Virus record (IMG/VR): IMGVR_UViG_3300046787_000305
Location: 1 to 31,227 of that record
Direction: 5' to 3' (one strand)
Origin: a virus
DNA: 31,227 nucleotides
Made by a program: the position numbers and the translations under genes. The notes beneath the pieces are model-generated. The model made no database searches, was not told where the DNA came from, and saw only the letters and a program-made list of their open reading frames with translations. Below are positions 11,391-31,227 of the stretch, one piece after another (position 1 is the first letter of the stretch; the number at the start of each line of letters is the position of its first letter).

Positions 11391-12550
11391 ATTACTTTGT
11401 ATTTGCCTTGTGATTTACGATAACTTAAAAAGAAATAACGCACCGCGTCAATGATGTGATTAAATGAATCAATCGGTTTGTTTGTGCTGTTACCTTCGCG
11501 ATCAATTGCCCAAACATAACTCCGGAGCTCTTTGATCAAGTTGATTGATTTACGTGTTATTAAAAACTTTTCGCTTTGCATTTTCTGAATCCCGAACATG
11601 ATTGAATCATTTCCCTTACTTGCGCCCTCAATGGACCAGCCCAGACGGCGAAGCTCTTCAATTGATTTTGGATCCGCTGAATCAGCGTAAACGCGCACCC
11701 CCTTTTTAACTGAATCTTTCGCCTCGCGGTTAATGTCTGAATTTGTTAAGCCTGTTTTGTAAATAACCTCATCCAGGATAAAACAATCATTGTAAGCGTA
11801 AACGGCGCAAATTGCCGTTGGATCATTACTAAAACCAAAGTCCATACCATAACCCAACAAACGCGCCTCTTTTGGGATGTCGTCAATTTGTTCCCAGTTA
11901 TTAAAGATCGCTCCGAGCAAATTACCGATTAAGCCCATGCCGTAAACTTTCCACCAGTTTTCCCAGTATGGGGATGTTTTCGCTTTTTCCTTTTTGATCA
12001 ACAAATCCTCCAGGGTTTCAGCCGGGAGCCCCTCGTTATCTTCATAAGTTAATAAAAGGAATTCGCTGTTTGGATCCTTTAAAACTTCGGTATGCGCCCA
12101 GAACTCATTGTTTGGGTTGAAATCAATGTACGTTTCTTTTGACCTGATCATGAGCGCATCGGCAATAATAAAGGGAACATGATTCGCCTCATTGATAAAA
12201 AGAATGTCCCTTTTTCCGGATGCCTTCGCTTTCCCCTCGGTATCAAATGCCTTGAATTGAATTCGGGAACCGTTGCCGAATTTGTATTCCATAGGGTTGC
12301 CGATCCATTGCGAATCGATCCAACGGCCCGTGTCAAACATAACCTGTTTGAAAATATCAACGGCCCCATCTTTCACAGCCGGAATTGTTTCGGCAACAAC
12401 CGTAATTTTTAAACGTGGATAACGCATCGCCTTATCAATCAAAATCGGAATGATTGCATAGGTTTTGCCCGCACTGGTCCCGCCTTGAATAACCTTTTTA
12501 CGGGCTTTCATCGCGAGAATTTTATTTATTGCTGTGGTCCTCTTGAACAT
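11387..12550 (-). CDS. terL: Terminase large subunit
   Basis: A 387-aa packaging motor with both expected domains. The ATPase part has a Walker A motif GGTSAGKT at residues 23-30 and a Walker B stretch ILFINEAN at about 116-123. The nuclease part has candidate metal-binding aspartates at GMDFGFSND (Asp 237), YADSAD (290/293) and HIIDAVRY (368). It pumps genomic DNA through the portal and cuts it at the end of packaging. The start is taken at the ATG at 12550 (MFKRTTAINK); the frame reaches 12571 only via a TTG. It overlaps terS by 29 bases, and its TGA stop overlaps the next ATG. Confidence 0.95.
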   Translation of the reverse strand: MFKRTTAINKILAMKARKKVIQGGTSAGKTYAIIPILIDKAMRYPRLKITVVAETIPAVKDGAVDIFKQVMFDTGRWIDSQWIGNPMEYKFGNGSRIQFKAFDTEGKAKASGKRDILFINEANHVPFIIADALMIRSKETYIDFNPNNEFWAHTEVLKDPNSEFLLLTYEDNEGLPAETLEDLLIKKEKAKTSPYWENWWKVYGMGLIGNLLGAIFNNWEQIDDIPKEARLLGYGMDFGFSNDPTAICAVYAYNDCFILDEVIYKTGLTNSDINREAKDSVKKGVRVYADSADPKSIEELRRLGWSIEGASKGNDSIMFGIQKMQSEKFLITRKSINLIKELRSYVWAIDREGNSTNKPIDSFNHIIDAVRYFFLSYRKSQGKYKVI

Positions 12551-13055: not shown

Positions 13056-13344
13056 TTGCTCGCGGTTTTCTTGTTGTTTTCGGTTTGGTTTGTTTCACCC
13101 CTGTGAACGAAACTTTTTTAACCGGGGTTGCTTTTTCCTCTTTCATTGGTTGCGGTGAATTCAAATGATTTACAAAAATTCGCATTGCATCCCTGCAACA
13201 TGTCGCGCATGATTCATTTAATTTGTTTCCTGTTAATTCCAGGTGAATTTTAGCGAGCTCTTTTTTTTGAGGCCCTGAAAGTGAGCAACTCCCAGCGCGT
13301 TGAAAAAATTCCGCTTTGGCGAGCATTTCCGTTGTGTATTCCAT
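13021..13344 (-). CDS. Unknown protein with Cys cluster and basic tail (107 aa)
   Basis: A 107-aa protein from the ATG at 13344. Residues 1-60 form a compact helical domain with a cysteine cluster (ESCATCC near residue 45), which could bind a metal ion. Residues 65-107 are a disordered basic tail rich in Lys, Thr and Pro (KPKTTRKPRANASKK), which suggests contact with nucleic acid. Similar small proteins sit just before terminase genes in related phages. It overlaps terS by 35 bases, so it is probably co-translated with it and may act in packaging or late gene control. There is no decisive motif. Confidence 0.7.
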   Translation of the reverse strand: MEYTTEMLAKAEFFQRAGSCSLSGPQKKELAKIHLELTGNKLNESCATCCRDAMRIFVNHLNSPQPMKEEKATPVKKVSFTGVKQTKPKTTRKPRANASKKTTSTKA

Positions 13345-15593: not shown

Positions 15594-15868
15594 TGTTCTT
15601 GTTGTTTAAAGGTTTCGTTGTAGTAATCAAATGGGCTTAGTCCTTTATCAATATCAATGCCAAAAGCATTGCCATTTAAATAAGCTGTTTTTATTTGCTC
15701 TTTCTCCATTTCTAAAAGATTTTCAGCGAATAATTTAGAATCCATAAATCCCGCAATTAAAAACGTTGTAAGTCCAACGCCAAGCTCATCTTGATTTTTA
15801 ATGAATTCCTTTGATTTTTCAATTCGTTCATCGATTTGCTTAATTAATTCCTGCATTGCTGTTTTCAT
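15590..15868 (-). CDS. Small helical protein (92 aa)
   Basis: A 92-aa protein, largely helical and charged at the N-terminus (LIKQIDERIEKSKEFIKNQDE) with a DYYNETFKQQEQ tail. The C-terminal residues FKQQEQ are encoded by an 18-base junction sequence that is repeated as a non-coding leader at 15232-15249. Start and stop both overlap their neighbours by ATGA. Short proteins of this type (ELIKQIDE with a later FDYYNETF) occur in Bacteroidota phages and are uncharacterised. Confidence 0.7.
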   Translation of the reverse strand: MKTAMQELIKQIDERIEKSKEFIKNQDELGVGLTTFLIAGFMDSKLFAENLLEMEKEQIKTAYLNGNAFGIDIDKGLSPFDYYNETFKQQEQ

Positions 15869-16104
15869 TTTTTTTTGTTTAAAGGTTTGGTTTTTTTACG
15901 GTTATGCTTTTCCATTGATTCAATCATTTTGCCCATTGTCCTTGATGAAATGGAACCGTTTCCGTTTATAAAATCATTTATTTTGACGCTGTTATTGTAC
16001 CCAAAAGAGGCACATATTTGATGAGGCGTTACGCCTGGATTTTTTATGCAAAATGCAATTACTTTTTTTGTGAATTTTTTCTCAAATGTTGTTTGATCAT
16101 TCAT
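15865..16104 (-). CDS. HTH DNA-binding protein, candidate early repressor (79 aa)
   Basis: A 79-aa basic protein. Residues 24-62 (GVTPHQICASFGY, then a region with NDFINGNGSISSRTMGKMIESM) look like a helix-turn-helix in the Cro/CI style, with the paired pattern FINGNGSIS seen before recognition helices in such regulators; the C-terminal tail is Lys-rich. It sits between the MBL-fold gene and the small early genes, in the operon downstream of three promoters that carry a shared palindromic operator. It is therefore the natural candidate to bind these operators. This is inference: no other Cro-like gene is seen, but a host repressor or another phage protein could also bind. Confidence 0.6.
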   Translation of the reverse strand: MNDQTTFEKKFTKKVIAFCIKNPGVTPHQICASFGYNNSVKINDFINGNGSISSRTMGKMIESMEKHNRKKTKPLNKKK

Positions 16105-16106
16105 TA

Positions 16107-16826
16107 TTAAAATGGATTTAAATTTAAAATTTGGTTTTTTGTGGCGATTGTTACCGGAATGCCGAAACGCATTTCAATTTTTTCCTTGAATTCCTTTTCA
16201 TTTGAAAGCCCATCAGATAAATGAAGCAAAACAATGTTATTGCATTTCGAAAGATCCATGTTTCCAAGCGTTAAAATTGCTGTTTGTATACTCATGTGAG
16301 AGCGCAAACGCCGGCGATTGATAAACGTTTCTGATTTTGATTTGATCAATTCCTCACAATAATTCGCCTCAATCATTATGCATGTAAATTGCCAGGTTCG
16401 AAAGTTCCATATTTGTTTGAAAGAATCAGTTAGGAAAAAAACTTTTTCGGATCCTGATTCAATAATAAATCCCAGCGTTGGGATGTCATGCGAAGCATCA
16501 AAGGAATGAATAAAAAAATCACTGATCTGTTTTGTTAATCCATTTATCAACGTTCCATGTCTGAGCTCACAAGGAATGTTCATTTGAAAAAATGTTGAAC
16601 CCAAAGCCATTAAGGGGATCCCTAATTGAGCAACCTGGTTCATTGCTCTTGAATGATCAAGGTGAGCATGAGAAACAATCGCGCCTTTGATCTTAAAAAC
16701 ATCGTAATCAATCGCCTTTTGAATTTCCTGTAATTTAACTCCGCATTCAATTAAGAGCGCGGAGTTTTCGTTTTCAAGAATGTAAGCATTTCCAACGGAA
16801 CCGGATGAAATGATTTTGAGCTTCAT
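16107..16826 (-). CDS. MBL-fold metallohydrolase next to recT
   Basis: A 239-aa protein from the ATG at 16826 (MKLKIISSGSVGNAYIL). The metal-binding motif of the metallo-beta-lactamase fold is clear in SHAHLDH at residues 52-58, with later candidate ligands in SFDASHDIP near residue 113 and the aspartate of FLTDS near 134. The start GSVGNAYIL and the HSFDASHD segment match the YycJ-like branch. In several Bacteroidota and Firmicute phages such a gene directly follows recT, so it may act as a nuclease in recombination or DNA end processing. RecT's TGA stop precedes this ATG by two bases. Confidence 0.85.
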   Translation of the reverse strand: MKLKIISSGSVGNAYILENENSALLIECGVKLQEIQKAIDYDVFKIKGAIVSHAHLDHSRAMNQVAQLGIPLMALGSTFFQMNIPCELRHGTLINGLTKQISDFFIHSFDASHDIPTLGFIIESGSEKVFFLTDSFKQIWNFRTWQFTCIMIEANYCEELIKSKSETFINRRRLRSHMSIQTAILTLGNMDLSKCNNIVLLHLSDGLSNEKEFKEKIEMRFGIPVTIATKNQILNLNPF

Positions 16827-16828
16827 TA

Positions 16829-17800
16829 TCAAAAGTCTGGCGAAGGTGTGATTGCTGGATTTTCTTGTGATTGTTGCAACTCAAATGTAATCTCCTGCGT
16901 TGCGGTTTCAGTTACAATCTCGTGTTTCACATCTTCCGTTGTGTTTGCTGGCTCGTGATTGAACTCGTCTTGAACATTGCTCAAACTAGCAAATTGAGCG
17001 TCAATTTTTTGACTATCAATGATAACATCATTGTAAGCTGCACGATAAATTGTTTTGTATGCCATTTCATCGTACCAGCCTTCAACTTGTTCTTTTCCGA
17101 CTTTTTTACCACCTGACCACACATCTTTTTCACCACCCCAAAACTCGGCACTTGCGTATTTCGGTTTGCGTTTTTCAATGTCCGCTTTCGTAAAAACTCG
17201 AATGTTGTTTGATTTTGAATTAGCATACTTCTGGCAATAAAAGCCACCAATCAGTTCACCACGATCAAAAGGATTCACAACCTCAAATAAATACGAATCG
17301 TTTTTGTTGTTGGCGTCCTTCTTGATTAACTTAAAGATGTCGTTTGCGTAAACTAGTTCAACAATAACATCTTCCAACGTGTCAAGACCGTATTTAATCG
17401 CCTTCAAAGCAAGTCCACGATACCCAATAATTGGCGTAATGTCAAACTTGTTTGTGTGATTGTTTTTATACGGAATCAAGTTAATGTGATTTGGTTGCAA
17501 TGGGTCAAGTCCAACGCTTGCCAACGGCACAACTTGCATTGCTAGCGCATTGATGTTGATATTCTCCCAAGTGTACGCCAAAGACTCGCGTTTGTCCTCT
17601 GGTGTTTTCATTCGCTTCGTTTCGGCAAGTGTCAAACTTTGGTCTAGCTTAATAAAATAGTTATTGATTAACTTTTGTTGGTATTGTGTTAAATCCATTT
17701 TACCAACTGACCCTTCGAACTCTTTTACGACTGCTTGCGTAAATCGTTCACTTGCTGATTTTTTTGCAACTGCCGGTTGCACGTTTTCTGTTTTTGACAT
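16829..17800 (-). CDS. recT: RecT-family single-strand annealing recombinase
   Basis: A 323-aa protein with the RecT core: a region near 85-110 (ALAMQVVPLASVGLDPLQPN), then HINLIPYKN and a PIIGYRGLALKAIKYG stretch near residue 122, and a GGFYCQKYANS region near 185. RecT proteins coat single-stranded DNA and anneal complementary strands, which supports phage replication, repair and circle or concatemer formation. No RecE-type exonuclease is evident next to it; the SbcC-like ATPase precedes it and an MBL-fold protein follows it. The C-terminal tail is disordered and acidic. It has its own promoter-like element at 17824-17855. Confidence 0.93.
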   Translation of the reverse strand: MSKTENVQPAVAKKSASERFTQAVVKEFEGSVGKMDLTQYQQKLINNYFIKLDQSLTLAETKRMKTPEDKRESLAYTWENININALAMQVVPLASVGLDPLQPNHINLIPYKNNHTNKFDITPIIGYRGLALKAIKYGLDTLEDVIVELVYANDIFKLIKKDANNKNDSYLFEVVNPFDRGELIGGFYCQKYANSKSNNIRVFTKADIEKRKPKYASAEFWGGEKDVWSGGKKVGKEQVEGWYDEMAYKTIYRAAYNDVIIDSQKIDAQFASLSNVQDEFNHEPANTTEDVKHEIVTETATQEITFELQQSQENPAITPSPDF

Positions 17801-17823: not shown

Positions 17824-17855
17824 TAAAGATAATAATTTATACTTAATTATTCAAA
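17824..17855 (-). promoter_or_regulatory. recT promoter with degenerate operator
   Basis: On the minus strand there is TTTG (17855-17852), a 20-base spacer, then TATCTTTA (17831-17824), one base from the Bacteroidota -7 form TAnnTTTG. The 18-base window 17826-17843 matches the early operator of the other two promoters at 15 of 18 positions, with one intact half (TTTATACT). The upstream half of the promoter lies over the last codons of the SbcC-like gene. It would start transcription about 15 bases before recT. Confidence 0.6.
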
Positions 17856-19738
17856 ACTGTTAACTCTTTTTTGCTTTCATCAACTTTCAAATTGATTACT
17901 TGGCACTCGGTTTTAATTAATGAAACGATGCTTTCGCGTTGATCGATAAACACCGGCGCAAAGATTCCAAAGTGATAGTTAAGCGCGTTGATTACGTCAA
18001 GCCCTGCGTTGTACTTCATTGCGGTATTCAAGTCATTGAAAGGTGTTCCATTTACAATTGCCTCGCATGTTGGTTCAATGCCTCCATTTAATTGATCGTT
18101 AAACATTTTCCATTTCACAAGGGCAAATTTATAATTGATTCGCTTTTCAATTAGTTCGATTTTTGCTCGCGTAAAATTATCAATTTGAAATTCAACTTTT
18201 TCCAGGCTTGCGATTTCCTGGGCAAGGTTTCTGTTTTGTGATTCAAGTTCCTGGATCCGAGCATCAATTGTTTTTGCTAATTCATTAACAGCGAGCTTTG
18301 ATTTAAGCGTGTCAATTTCCGCGTTGATCACATCCTTTTGCGCTTTCAATTCGGCAACATCTGGCATTTGAATTGTGGGAATTACGATTGATTCAATTTG
18401 TAATTTAAGCGCGTCAATTTCCGGAGTTGATTCCGAGCGATCTAAAAGAATTGATTTTTCCCATTCTTTCAAATATGTTTCCTTTTGTTCAATCACAAAC
18501 TTTGTACTTTCAAAAACTTCAAGGTTGCCTTGATGTCTTGCCTTTAATTCTTTTATGCGCTCATTGTTAGCTTGGCCCTCTTCTCGGATTGATTCAAGGT
18601 TTTTTATTTTATACAAATTGAAATCTGATTCTTTTTCCTCATTATCCTGAAAGGCTTGTTTACATGTTGGGCAATTACCAACAAACAACATTGATTGCAT
18701 TGATTCAAAATCAGATCTCAACTTTTCATTTTTAGCCTCAAGCTCTTTGATTTCTCTTTCCGGTTGTGAATCAATTTTTATGCTTTGATATTCTTTTATT
18801 TCATTGATCAATTCATTTCGCTTTTGATCAATCGAAAAACGATATTGTTGTTCACTTAAATTAAATTCATTTTGAAGCTCGCGCAATTTATTTTCAAGCT
18901 CAAATTTTTTCACCTGAATTTTTTTTGTTTGTTCCTGGGCTTTTTCAACTGATTTAAAACGGTTTTGTATTTGTTCATCAATTGAATTCAATTCGCCATC
19001 CAGGGAAATGATTTCGTTTTGAATCGCGCATGAATCAACTGTATCCGGCTTATTATGATTCGCCTCATTTATCCGAGGTTGTATTGTTGCTTTTTCCTCT
19101 TTGAGTTTTTTCTTTTGTGCCTGTATTATTTTCTTTTGTTCATCCAAAGATTTTCCAGCGTTTAGGATTTCTTTGAGTTCATTGGAATCCGAATCCATTT
19201 CGGAAATAATTTCATTGTTTGAAATATCGCCGGCCATCGCCTGTAAAATTTCACGGCGCTCATTCCATTTCATTTTATCATTGAAATAAAGCGGGTTTGA
19301 AATAATCTTTGAAATATTTTCATCAATCATTTCGGAAACAGCTGTTTGATATTCCGCTTTGGATTTTGGAACGCCATTAACAAAGAATGATGTTTCATGT
19401 CCTGTAAGCTCTTCAATTTCGTTGCCTCGCTTAGTTACCCATTTTTCGCGATAAACCCGCTTAAATGTAATGTTTGCCCCATCAACGGAAAAAACTCCAG
19501 TTACTTCATGATCAAGTTTGTGAATAGGATTGTTATCCTGGTCCAATGTTTTAATTGCGAAGTCGTTTTGATCGTGCGAGTTTTTACCATAAAGTAGCCA
19601 GGTATAAGCGTCAAAGATTGTTGATTTACCAACTCCATTCGTGCCGACAATATCGGTTTCATGTGTGAAATCAATCGAAAGGTTGGTGATTTTCTTGAAA
19701 TTACGGAGTTCAAGTCTCGTTAAAGTTACTTTTTTCAT
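17843..19738 (-). CDS. SbcC-like ATPase with zinc hook
   Basis: A 631-aa protein of the SMC/Rad50/SbcC type. Walker A is GTNGVGKST at residues 32-40. Two long coiled coils (about 185-350 and 375-535) flank a zinc-hook motif CPTC at 356-359. The C-terminal lobe carries a degenerate Walker B region VFIDQRE at about 596-602 and an FNDLNTAMKYNAGLD stretch near 567-581 in the position of the ABC signature. It is shorter than bacterial SbcC. Such ATPases work with a nuclease to process DNA ends; the metallophosphoesterase further along could be the partner. The gene starts 24 bases downstream of a promoter with a clear operator. Confidence 0.85.
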   Translation of the reverse strand: MKKVTLTRLELRNFKKITNLSIDFTHETDIVGTNGVGKSTIFDAYTWLLYGKNSHDQNDFAIKTLDQDNNPIHKLDHEVTGVFSVDGANITFKRVYREKWVTKRGNEIEELTGHETSFFVNGVPKSKAEYQTAVSEMIDENISKIISNPLYFNDKMKWNERREILQAMAGDISNNEIISEMDSDSNELKEILNAGKSLDEQKKIIQAQKKKLKEEKATIQPRINEANHNKPDTVDSCAIQNEIISLDGELNSIDEQIQNRFKSVEKAQEQTKKIQVKKFELENKLRELQNEFNLSEQQYRFSIDQKRNELINEIKEYQSIKIDSQPEREIKELEAKNEKLRSDFESMQSMLFVGNCPTCKQAFQDNEEKESDFNLYKIKNLESIREEGQANNERIKELKARHQGNLEVFESTKFVIEQKETYLKEWEKSILLDRSESTPEIDALKLQIESIVIPTIQMPDVAELKAQKDVINAEIDTLKSKLAVNELAKTIDARIQELESQNRNLAQEIASLEKVEFQIDNFTRAKIELIEKRINYKFALVKWKMFNDQLNGGIEPTCEAIVNGTPFNDLNTAMKYNAGLDVINALNYHFGIFAPVFIDQRESIVSLIKTECQVINLKVDESKKELTVLNN

Positions 19739-19761: not shown

Positions 19762-19792
19762 CAAATATAGTATAATTATTTATACTAAAAAC
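19762..19792 (-). promoter_or_regulatory. Promoter with 18-bp palindromic operator, before SbcC-like gene
   Basis: On the minus strand the -7 element is TATATTTG (19769-19762). The plus-strand 18-mer AGTATAATTATTTATACT (19769-19786) is a palindrome with 7-bp perfect arms, and it begins exactly at the first base of the -7 element. Upstream, the -33 box is poor (GTTT at spacing 19). The same 18-base arrangement at the same position occurs at 24634-24651. The start of the SbcC-like gene is 24 bases downstream. Confidence 0.75.
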
Positions 19793-19801
19793 ATTTTAAC
19801 G

Positions 19802-20047
19802 TTAATTATTTTCAAGTTTTTTCAACCAATTACGGAACTCATTTCCAATTTCAACTTGTTGAGCGTGAATACGAATGTCATCCGTTGCCATGATTTTAGC
19901 GTCAATCTTGCGAATCTCTGCGTGTAAATGGTTTGCTTTCATTTTCACTTGTTTGGTGAAGATTTTATTGTCATTCAAGTCCTCGATAAAATCGGCAAGC
20001 ACGGGAAGTATTCCGCACAATGCTAGTAGTTTAGTTGTATCTTTCAT
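19802..20047 (-). CDS. Unknown helical protein (81 aa)
   Basis: An 81-aa protein, mostly helical, beginning with a moderately hydrophobic segment (LLALCGILPVLADFIEDL) followed by an acidic/basic amphipathic stretch (MKANHLHAEIRKIDAKI). It overlaps the methyltransferase stop (ATGA) and lies before the operator promoter. No family is recognised. Confidence 0.65.
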   Translation of the reverse strand: MKDTTKLLALCGILPVLADFIEDLNDNKIFTKQVKMKANHLHAEIRKIDAKIMATDDIRIHAQQVEIGNEFRNWLKKLENN

Positions 20048-21120
20048 ATTTTACTTAACCATTGATCATAAATATTACTAGCTATTTGAGCTGTCATTAT
20101 CGGTGGAACACTCATTCCAATTAAATATTTGTGATTTATATTTAAAAAATTGTAATCACTTGGGAAACTCCCACCTTTTATTAAATCTTCTTCATGAAAA
20201 TAAGTCGGAATATCATGCCTAAATTCACCATTGTTTCCGGTTAAAATTGTGCAAAATGGTTCATTTATGTTTACTTTCCTGTAAGAGAAAAATTTTTCTT
20301 TTTCGCCTAAAGATCTTATATAATTACAAATACTTGAGCCTTGCGGAGTTTCTTTCCAATACTTTAAAATTGAAGGTGCTAATTTTTTACCTGGTTTAAA
20401 GCTATCAAATTCATTTACTGAAATTTGTTTTTCATTAAACTCCATTACTATTTTAGGAATTTGAGTAAACATATCTTTTGAGTGTAAAAACTGACTACTT
20501 AAATCTTTTCGCAACGCAATAAAAAAAACTCTTTTTCTTTTTTGAGGAACTCCCATTTTTGAAGCATTTAGTAAAAAATGCTGAACAATATAACCGGCTT
20601 CATCAAATGCCTTGTAAATGTTAATCACATAAGATTTTGCATTTCCTAATAAAAGACCTTCTACGTTTTCGGCAACAACTACTTTTGGTTGTAATTCTTT
20701 TGCTAAATCAATAAAATCAAAAAATAAAGTATCTAAAACTTGTAAGGCTTGACCTTCTGTAAATTTCTTTTCTTTACCCCAATCTTTTTCACGATTTCCA
20801 GCCATTGAAAAACTTGAACAAGGCGGAGATCCGTCCAAAATATCTAATTCATACAATTCTTTTGGTAAATCTTTACGCTTTGCAAAAGTTGTAATACTTT
20901 CAAGAAATGAAAATTTTGGATTGTGATTTGCTTTGTATACATCTATCATTCTTTTATCAATATCATTGTGCCCAATTACATCAAATCCAGCTAATTTATA
21001 GCCCATTGTTGATCCACCACCACAGGCAAAACAAGAAAATACTTTTCCTTTGTCCTTGGTGAAATTTGCATTTTTTAAAGTCCAATCATATTTGAACTTA
21101 TGTTCTTTACTTAGTTTCAT
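20044..21120 (-). CDS. C5-cytosine DNA methyltransferase (orphan)
   Basis: A 358-aa C5-type methyltransferase with the ordered motifs: motif I SCFACGGGS at residues 29-37, a catalytic PC in DGSPPCSSFS (Cys101), motif VI ENV at 151-153, motif VIII QKRKR at 193-197 and a motif X GMSVPP near 335-340 (usually GNSVPP). It transfers methyl from AdoMet to C5 of cytosine; the variable part before the C-terminus sets the DNA target, which I cannot infer. No restriction gene lies beside it, so it probably protects phage DNA from host enzymes or serves as an epigenetic mark. The start is the ATG at 21120, as the frame upstream needs a TTG. The gene reads as more AT-rich than neighbours, consistent with separate acquisition. 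Confidence 0.92.
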   Translation of the reverse strand: MKLSKEHKFKYDWTLKNANFTKDKGKVFSCFACGGGSTMGYKLAGFDVIGHNDIDKRMIDVYKANHNPKFSFLESITTFAKRKDLPKELYELDILDGSPPCSSFSMAGNREKDWGKEKKFTEGQALQVLDTLFFDFIDLAKELQPKVVVAENVEGLLLGNAKSYVINIYKAFDEAGYIVQHFLLNASKMGVPQKRKRVFFIALRKDLSSQFLHSKDMFTQIPKIVMEFNEKQISVNEFDSFKPGKKLAPSILKYWKETPQGSSICNYIRSLGEKEKFFSYRKVNINEPFCTILTGNNGEFRHDIPTYFHEEDLIKGGSFPSDYNFLNINHKYLIGMSVPPIMTAQIASNIYDQWLSKI

Positions 21121-21295
21121 TTGTTTTCCCAATTAATTTTGATTCAATCACTTTCACAATGAAAGCTGTTTCTTTGAACGGTGATTTGTAAGGCCGATAA
21201 ATTTCAGCACCTTCAATCCAAACAGCCCGTTTAACCGTGTGAATTTTATTCGAGCTCCTCACCTCAATTGTTCCGAAAAGAATGTTTTTGCTCAA
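21107..21295 (-). CDS. 62-aa protein starting with TTG
   Basis: A 62-aa protein whose only plausible start is the TTG at 21295, which overlaps the previous stop as TTGA; an in-frame stop lies six codons upstream, and there is no ATG inside. The sequence (LFGTIEVRSSNKIHTVKRAVW, then AEIYRPYKSPFKETAFIVKVIES) suggests a small beta barrel. It overlaps the methyltransferase start by 14 bases. No family is recognised. Confidence 0.6.
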   Translation of the reverse strand: MSKNILFGTIEVRSSNKIHTVKRAVWIEGAEIYRPYKSPFKETAFIVKVIESKLIGKTNETK

Positions 21296-24454: not shown

Positions 24455-24586
24455 TTAATTAAATTTAACTAATTCTACTTTTTCAAGATCATAACCTAAA
24501 AGAATTAATGTATCTAAATAATTGTTTAATTCGATTGCAGGAATTGTTACGATTTCTGTTTCTGTTAATTTTAAAGTTGCTGTCAT
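24455..24586 (-). CDS. 43-aa early peptide, first gene after the early promoter
   Basis: A 43-codon frame from the ATG at 24586 (MTATLKLTETEIVTIPAIELN) to the TAA at 24455-24457. It is acidic, with an amphipathic pattern (NNYLDTLILLGYDLEKVEL). It directly follows the best promoter in the window, with a leader of about 34 bases, so it should be the first early product. Its short size keeps it outside ordinary gene calls. Function unknown. Confidence 0.6.
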   Translation of the reverse strand: MTATLKLTETEIVTIPAIELNNYLDTLILLGYDLEKVELVKFN

Positions 24587-24626
24587 TTGTTGAGTTATTA
24601 GCGTTGTTTTTAAATTGATTACCTGA

Positions 24627-24657
24627 CAAATGTAGTATAAAGTTTTATACTTGCAAA
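24627..24657 (-). promoter_or_regulatory. Early promoter with 18-bp palindromic operator
   Basis: The minus strand shows TTTG (24657-24654), a 19-base spacer, and TACATTTG (24634-24627), an exact fit to the Bacteroidota consensus TTTG-N19-TAnnTTTG. The plus-strand sequence AGTATAAAGTTTTATACT (24634-24651) is a palindrome with 8-bp arms that fills most of the spacer. Binding there would block RNA polymerase. The same arms occur at the promoter before the SbcC-like gene. The strongest promoter in the window. Confidence 0.85.
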
Positions 24658-24773: not shown

Positions 24774-24802
24774 AAAAAAGCCATCCAATTAAATGAATGG
24801 CT
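24774..24802 (-). terminator. Second intrinsic terminator in the lysis/early gap
   Basis: A 6-bp stem AGCCAT/ATGGCT (24779-24784 with 24797-24802) with a 12-base loop, ending in six T residues on the minus strand (24779-24774). A further imperfect hairpin (about 24805-24826, AAAACG arms) lies just upstream. With the terminator at 24698-24734 it gives a double stop after the lysis operon. The 293-base stretch 24587-24879 holds only these hairpins and promoter-like elements and no gene. Confidence 0.75.
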
Positions 24803-24856
24803 CTAAAACGAGGCGTTCAACTCCGTTTTAATTGCAACGCTAATCACAAAGTAAAG

Positions 24857-29402: not shown

Positions 29403-31227
29403 TTACTTTTTTGTTACAATCGTTTGAAACCATAAATGACGACACCAGGGGGTTGTTGCGCCAGTGTCCGGATTCGTATAAAATCCGCCTTTGTAAACCC
29501 AAACATCTCGATCAACTTTGGAACTCATGAAATTGATTTCCTCCCTTGTGTACATTTTATTTAAGCTCATTAAGTTTTGGCAAAATTCCCGGCTCCCTGA
29601 AATGGCATCAGGAACATCCGTTCGAACCTGGTAACTATATCGAACCTCAAAGGTTGGAATATCAGCAACATCATTCAAAATTAATTTTTCGCCCAGGGAT
29701 GAAAGCTCACCACCTGAAACTAAACCCCATTCAGTAAGGCGAGCAATTGAAACGGCAACCTCTTTAATTGTTAATCCTGTTGCCTGTGAAATTCCGTTTC
29801 CATCCTCTCCCTTGTTTAGTAATGAAAGAACATCCTTATCGATCCCCTCAATTCCAACTGATATTTCTCCAATAGTTGCGAAAACCTCATCATGTTTTTT
29901 GAAAACGTTTTCCGTTATTGAATTCCATTGAATCGGCAATTGTGCGAAAACTTCAAAGTTTCCCGCATCCTCTCCATGCTCGGAAAAAATTGAAAGCTCA
30001 TCCGATGAAAACGAATGATTTCCTTTGCATGTACTAAATCCAGTTGTTGGAACACCGACCATTTTTTCAGCTTGTGCCTGATCAATTGAAGGGAATGAAG
30101 CCAGGATAATTTCAACCCCGCTTTTTGTATCGATTTCCCCTAATTTAACCTTTGCCACAACGTCCACAAGTGAGGCGATCTGAGCCCCATTTAAAGCCGT
30201 TTTTGATACATCGGTGATTTGTGCCTCAACTGGAGCTGTTGGCGCTGTTGCTGGCGTTGTTTCAGCTGGCGCGTTGTTAATTGTTACGCTGTTTGCTGGC
30301 GTTGTTACATCAACCGCCTGATCTATTGGTTTAACTTCAATCAAAGAAACTTCGCCCTCAAAACCTGAAAGCGAAACCATTTTATTCAACATCCAATTAA
30401 TTCTTTGCTGGCGTTGTGTTACATAAGTTTTCTTAAACACTTCAAACAGTTGCGCACTTTCCGCGGCGTTAAATGAACCCTGTTGCATAACGCCGAATAA
30501 TGTAGGCGAAACAACCCCATGAGCAACGAGAATGTTTTGAAGCGTTGTTGAATTTGTAACCGTGTAACGTTTATCCAAATCATTTCCATTTAATGGCGTA
30601 ACGATTGGAGCGTGATCCTTATCAACCGCAAAATTGATAATAATTTCACCGGCGTTTTCAGCGCCTGATGTCGGTTTTTTAACCGATGTTTTCACCTCTT
30701 CAATTTCCTCCTTAGTTTCCGGGATTCCATCGGTAAATGTGATCATTGTTCCAGAACTGAATGAGTTCTGAATTAAAGCGTTATTGTATTTGTTTAGATT
30801 CCAATCCGTTTCGATTGCTGAAACTCCGGAATAATAAGGGGGCTTAGGATAAACGCCCAGTTCTTTTCGGTTCTTTTTTGTTGGATCTTTATAATAAATG
30901 AAAAATGAACCCTCTTTAATGTTATCATTTAAAACAGGATAATCACGGTAACCTGTTTTTTCGGCATCCTGGTTTTGAGCGTTCCAATCATTGGAAAGCC
31001 AAACGCGCGTTTCATCTAAATTAAAACGACATTCATCCATGGGCAAATGTTCCCACTTAACAACGCGAACGCCCTCCATGTCCCAGGTTCCTTTAACAAC
31101 GAAACCGCCATATCTTTCATGATCCTCACAAATTGATTCCGCGATTTCATTTATTGTGAAATCAGTGTATTGATTATTCAAGAAAATTTCCAGATTTCCG
31201 GATTTTATTTCAACCCCTCCGCCGGCA
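29403..31227 (-). CDS. Portal protein, main part, with winged-helix and MuF-like C-terminus
   Basis: The frame enters the window at 31227 without a start; the N-terminal part is at 1-356, giving a 672-aa protein. The first 280 residues of this part form the portal core, with many Tyr and Trp residues and a long helix (about 235-270). A Thr/Pro/Ala-rich linker (about 293-320) follows, then an acidic region, then a winged-helix-like module at about 447-505 (GNGISQATGLTIKEVAVSIARL; full-length 527-585), and a C-terminal MuF-like end with PWCRHLW (about 578-584). Such composite portals combine DNA channel and head morphogenesis functions. The stop lies one base before the adaptor gene. Confidence 0.85.
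   Translation of the reverse strand, partial: AGGGVEIKSGNLEIFLNNQYTDFTINEIAESICEDHERYGGFVVKGTWDMEGVRVVKWEHLPMDECRFNLDETRVWLSNDWNAQNQDAEKTGYRDYPVLNDNIKEGSFFIYYKDPTKKNRKELGVYPKPPYYSGVSAIETDWNLNKYNNALIQNSFSSGTMITFTDGIPETKEEIEEVKTSVKKPTSGAENAGEIIINFAVDKDHAPIVTPLNGNDLDKRYTVTNSTTLQNILVAHGVVSPTLFGVMQQGSFNAAESAQLFEVFKKTYVTQRQQRINWMLNKMVSLSGFEGEVSLIEVKPIDQAVDVTTPANSVTINNAPAETTPATAPTAPVEAQITDVSKTALNGAQIASLVDVVAKVKLGEIDTKSGVEIILASFPSIDQAQAEKMVGVPTTGFSTCKGNHSFSSDELSIFSEHGEDAGNFEVFAQLPIQWNSITENVFKKHDEVFATIGEISVGIEGIDKDVLSLLNKGEDGNGISQATGLTIKEVAVSIARLTEWGLVSGGELSSLGEKLILNDVADIPTFEVRYSYQVRTDVPDAISGSREFCQNLMSLNKMYTREEINFMSSKVDRDVWVYKGGFYTNPDTGATTPWCRHLWFQTIVTKK
31066..31227. repeat. Terminal overlap repeat, right copy
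   Basis: This copy of the 162-base overlap matches positions 1-162 with two substitutions (31089 and 31101), both synonymous in the portal gene. It shows the contig closes on itself and that the reads or strains at the two ends were not identical. Only one copy should be kept in a closed genome. Confidence 0.95.

Follow-up and report, generated by a model that had tools for sequence, protein, structure and literature searches.

HipB and the controller (C) proteins of restriction-modification systems, such as C.Esp1396I, are small proteins that bind short palindromes and regulate their own promoters. In mycobacteriophages of the L5 type, one repressor site, the stoperator, is repeated through the phage genome. 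The phage analyzed here is represented by a 31,227-base virus record from IMG/VR (the whole stretch is referred to as the window); it shares features with both and with the Cro and CI circuits of phage lambda. Like the latter, it combines a small predicted lambda-repressor-like helix-turn-helix (HTH) protein with palindromic operators of 17 to 18 bp within promoters, and several promoters would be placed under one protein that would also regulate its own synthesis. Unlike the lambda circuits, it has single-copy sites within sigma-ABfr promoters, and no divergent switch, second repressor, or integrase was found; no sequence similarity of the 79-residue HTH protein to Cro or CI was detected. C.Esp1396I and HipB are among the nearest solved folds of this protein, but the identity is below 20%, the operator sequence is different, and the gene stands without any restriction or toxin partner that we could see. 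As in the L5-type phages, a single repressor site recurs along the genome, although here the sites are symmetrical and located in promoters, and the phages look lytic. A literature search returned no description of this operator, nor of gene-timing operators in lytic Bacteroidota phages. The operator system is an ordinary mechanism with new detail.

The window is probably a complete, circular or circularly permuted genome, since its ends (positions 1-162 and 31066-31227) repeat 162 bp at 98.8% identity, with small assembly differences. The replication genes lie on the minus strand, as do the genes for an SbcC-like ATPase (17843-19738; phrog_77, E = 1.2e-69), a RecT-family annealing protein (16829-17800; Pfam PF03837, E = 1.2e-10), a metallo-beta-lactamase-fold (MBL) protein identified with Pfam (16107-16832), and, after it in the same recT-MBL unit, the 79-residue candidate repressor (15865-16104). 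The DNA of a C5 cytosine methyltransferase gene (20044-21132) is about 75% identical over 585 bases to its counterpart in Cellulophaga phage phi18:3, which suggests a Flavobacteria host.

Two perfect 18-bp palindromes of the form AGTATAA-N4-TTATACT, AGTATAAAGTTTTATACT at 24634-24651 and AGTATAATTATTTATACT at 19769-19786, have identical 7-bp arms and, on the minus strand, the strand of the genes, terminate on the first base (T) of a TAnnTTTG -7 element. Both this arrangement and the promoter form TTTG-N19/20-TAnnTTTG had been put forward in an earlier, sequence-only reading of the window; the former can be read directly, and the latter is the published Bacteroidota consensus, with the start site 4 to 5 nt downstream (PMC6847099). 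The early promoter (24627-24657, minus strand), likewise read directly, comprises a -33 TTTG (24657-24654), a spacer of 19 bp, and the -7 element TACATTTG (24634-24627); operator 1 (AGTATAA-AGTT-TTATACT, 24634-24651) occupies the spacer. Downstream, the first gene is a 43-residue open reading frame (ORF) (24466-24597, minus strand), which is the second gene in the related contig L011, and a terminator-like hairpin on the same strand (24777-24804, a consensus match only) would insulate the promoter from the preceding unit. Operator 2 (AGTATAA-TTAT-TTATACT, 19769-19786) lies in the promoter of the SbcC-like gene, whose -7 element TATATTTG (19762-19769, minus strand) is conserved in L178, L179, L021, and L023; a clear TTTG at -33 was not found in this promoter. 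The recT promoter (17824-17855, minus strand) consists of TTTG (17855-17852), a spacer of 20 bp, and the -7 element TATCTTTA (17831-17824). Here operator 3 (AGTATAAATTATTATCTT on the minus strand; 17826-17843) has one core mismatch and also overlaps the codon that terminates the SbcC-like gene. The sequence-only reading had described it as a degenerate third copy overlapping the recT promoter: the 15 of 18 bases shared with the 19769 site and the overlap are borne out, but the offset from the -7 element differs by 5 bp, the site reaching deeper into that element (register -5).

Close relatives keep the palindrome, whose absence there would have spoken against the proposal. SbcC-like relatives were gathered independently of the motif and then scanned for any in-register palindrome; only this class appeared, besides a single weak hit within an ORF of L184. 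In phages of clade A (the window, L178, L179, L023, and L180) and of clade CG (L182, L188, L199, L189, and L193), between which the SbcC identity is about 45%, the early, SbcC, and recT promoters retain their sites where the contigs cover them while the flanks diverge, and the early promoter is the same in L178/L011 and in the CG phages L182, L188, and L199. Operator 3 taken alone (12 of 14 arm bases) would be unconvincing, but the relatives show it to be real, because their recT promoters retain the core TATAA-N4-TTATA, with the -7 element within the right arm in register -5. This core is perfect in L179, L180, L023, L188, L189, L193, and L199, and relatives have TATATTTG where the -7 element of the recT promoter stands in the window. 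In L182 and L192 the recT promoter is replaced by a hairpin-like sequence, GCTCGGAAAGACGAGC, that lacks the operator (at about 11550-11612 and 13080-13144, respectively). A diverged HTH protein is present in L181, L186, and L190, in which no clear sites were seen, and neither an HTH homologue nor sites were found at nine SbcC loci (L194-L202).

The assignment of the 79-residue protein to the HTH class, already made in the sequence-only reading, agrees with structure prediction and PDB matches. AlphaFold, given 14 homologues, predicts a four-helix domain (pLDDT 81.7; helices at residues 6-21, 27-32, 39-46, and 54-72) that corresponds to the four-to-five-helix lambda-repressor-like (XRE/Cro) domain, with helices 2 and 3 as the HTH. 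Structural matches of the family include HipB, C.Esp1396I, ComR, and the CI protein of TP901-1. Foldseek gives a probability of 1.00 to HipB, with a weak best E-value of 0.08, and VIA Z scores reach 7.4 to POU-specific/XRE folds; since they stay under 8, they support a fold-level assignment and no closer kinship. PHROG HTH matches are weak, and Pfam returned no match of any kind, a curated HTH_3/XRE profile included, for six family members (E <= 1) or for the window protein (0.05), nor any HTH_3 in 22 contigs. A tblastn search of isolated phages found no match for the 79-residue protein; SbcC matches in such phages, those of Cellulophaga and Bacteroides included, reach 33 to 36% only.

The choice of this protein as the regulator is supported by its distribution in three of the operator-bearing groups. 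Homologues occur in groups A and CG and, remotely (E about 1e-7), in group D, in which an ERF-type annealing protein replaces RecT. Group D phages carry two to four operators each, and their HTH gene comes after the annealing-protein gene, as in the window. The HTH family thus co-occurs with the sites, in the same genomes, in phages with SbcC and RecT as well as in this unrelated group of ERF phages. Among the non-structural family profiles built here, with a median length of up to 300 residues, only those of the HTH protein and a phosphoesterase span A, CG, and D, so that the former is the sole putative DNA-binding family below 300 residues found common to the three groups. A co-variation between arm positions 2/17 and the recognition helix across clades A and CG was considered and dropped, the recT sites of clade A already having other bases.

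The choice is less well served by groups B, C, AC, GT, E, and F, which bear the operator and in which no 79-residue homologue is detectable, several of their contigs being fragments. The sites could therefore be operators of another phage protein, or of a widely shared Bacteroidota host factor, with the 79-residue HTH doing something else; we regard this as unlikely, yet as the alternative to be taken most seriously. Groups B and AC/GT encode proteins with a DnaA C-terminal domain, and the AC/GT proteins are related to the 168-residue protein of group B, whose gene lies directly behind an operator (L051, 4737-5240; L043, 5146-5649). Against another phage protein stands the distribution of the HTH family across A, CG, and D. 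In the AC/GT groups, another small predicted HTH protein is encoded next to the operator; the 64-residue HTH of group AC was rejected as a member of the 79-residue family (hhalign probability, 0.7%). In operator promoters of group AC (L153, 1829-1855, contig G024; also G033, G036, and G042), 4 nt separate TATATTTG from the ATG, which predicts leaderless mRNAs. That unrelated lytic Bacteroidota phages converged on, or exchanged, one spacer operator despite different replication modules and HTH proteins strikes us as doubtful.

As for a host factor, the broad operator pattern had no match in 395 sampled Bacteroidota genomes (the control had one), which makes a conserved host regulator unlikely; for this arm sequence we reject the idea. 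A composite pattern found 15 scattered matches in 257 Gb of genomes, many of them inside ORFs. By contrast, the operator class is present in several unrelated Bacteroidota phage groups, and we read it as a phage operator and not a host one, judging from where it occurs. A second sample, 396 genomes of one order, yielded eight matches that represent another palindrome, ATTATAA-N4-TTATAAT, before chromosomal genes, and one inside an ORF. This other palindrome adjoins TATATTTG before chromosomal genes in six genomes of one Bacteroidota order (L144-L151), three of the sites being at orthologous loci, and possibly marks a regulon of the host whose promoters are laid out in the same way. Its presence favors the host-factor explanation to the extent that hosts can evidently use such a layout, but they do so with other arms.

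We therefore return to the 79-residue protein as the reading that we favor and consider fairly probable: the palindromes would be operators of a phage-encoded dimeric HTH protein that acts as an autoregulatory repressor of the early, SbcC-like, and recT promoters, in the manner of a Cro-like timer. We infer that its dimer binds operators 1 and 2 across positions -29 to -12, and at operator 3 it would cover the -7 element itself, so that the bound protein would physically keep the host sigma-ABfr RNA polymerase off these promoters. Because the HTH gene sits in the recT unit, the protein would also limit its own synthesis. Early genes may thus be switched on at once after infection and then be damped as the protein accumulates. 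Palindromes overlapping the promoters of several units, as found here, are what a phage repressor-operator system should display. Lysogeny functions, which a temperate CI-like system should have, were sought as Phage_integrase in 23 contigs and Resolvase in 12 contigs, and none was found; this favors a Cro-like timing role, makes a lysogeny switch unlikely, and suggests that these phages are lytic.

The position of the palindrome inside a 19- to 20-bp spacer, in a register (0, +1, or -5) that is fixed in most promoters, together with the lack of a good -33 TTTG in the SbcC promoter, would also suit a spacer-acting activator in the style of the MerR family. We consider this very unlikely. The early promoter, with full consensus -33 and -7 elements at 19 bp, should need no activator, and the recT sites lie 5 bp further, over the -7 element; registers 0 and -5 are half a helical turn apart and hence on opposite helix faces, which fits occlusion and not a face-specific activator. 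Moreover, no MerR match, and thus no MerR-type HTH to go with the fixed spacer register, was obtained among the proteins scanned against Pfam, which represent part of the ORFs. On these grounds, occlusion by the 79-residue repressor is preferred over activation.

The register also separates the sites from the background of this AT-rich DNA. A perfect 7/4/7 palindrome is by itself not rare in the window, where six occur against five expected when no register is required. However, 2 of the 34 TAnnTTTG elements carry an in-register perfect palindrome with 7-bp arms, whereas 300 dinucleotide shuffles averaged 0.003 and no shuffle reached two. Scanning viral contigs with AGTATAAN4TTATACTAnnTTTG recovered 18 stretches, nearly all located 22 to 75 bp 5' of an ATG, whereas a control palindrome with the same bases in scrambled order gave 6 matches, and the three that were traced fell within ORFs and lacked a correspondingly placed ATG. 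A looser viral scan revealed further arm variants (C/G, A/C, A/G, and G/T) at positions 2/17. Of 39 phage contigs, 38 contained sites, 57 in total, and there was no reversed-control match; one site per contig is mostly present by selection in this set, but the additional sites are not. In all but two of these contigs, the sites are confined to one strand. Part of the arm composition is accounted for by the AT-rich motifs that Flavobacterium johnsoniae promoters have anyway at -18 and -28 (PMC6847099), but the explanation that there is no operator, and that an AT-rich spacer favoring strong promoters is palindromic in appearance only, is scarcely credible given that the arms are exactly complementary, G/C pairs included, that no control palindrome turned up in register 0 at a -7 element, that the scrambled control fell short of the true pattern as described, and that the operator is absent from host promoters.

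With a recognizable operator and a candidate repressor, the early transcription units of many phages that have not been cultured become readable, and the operator promoters represent a naturally occurring repressible design for sigma-ABfr hosts. If unrelated phage groups do use one operator sequence in common, a repressor made by one phage could, during mixed infection, also act on early promoters that belong to another.
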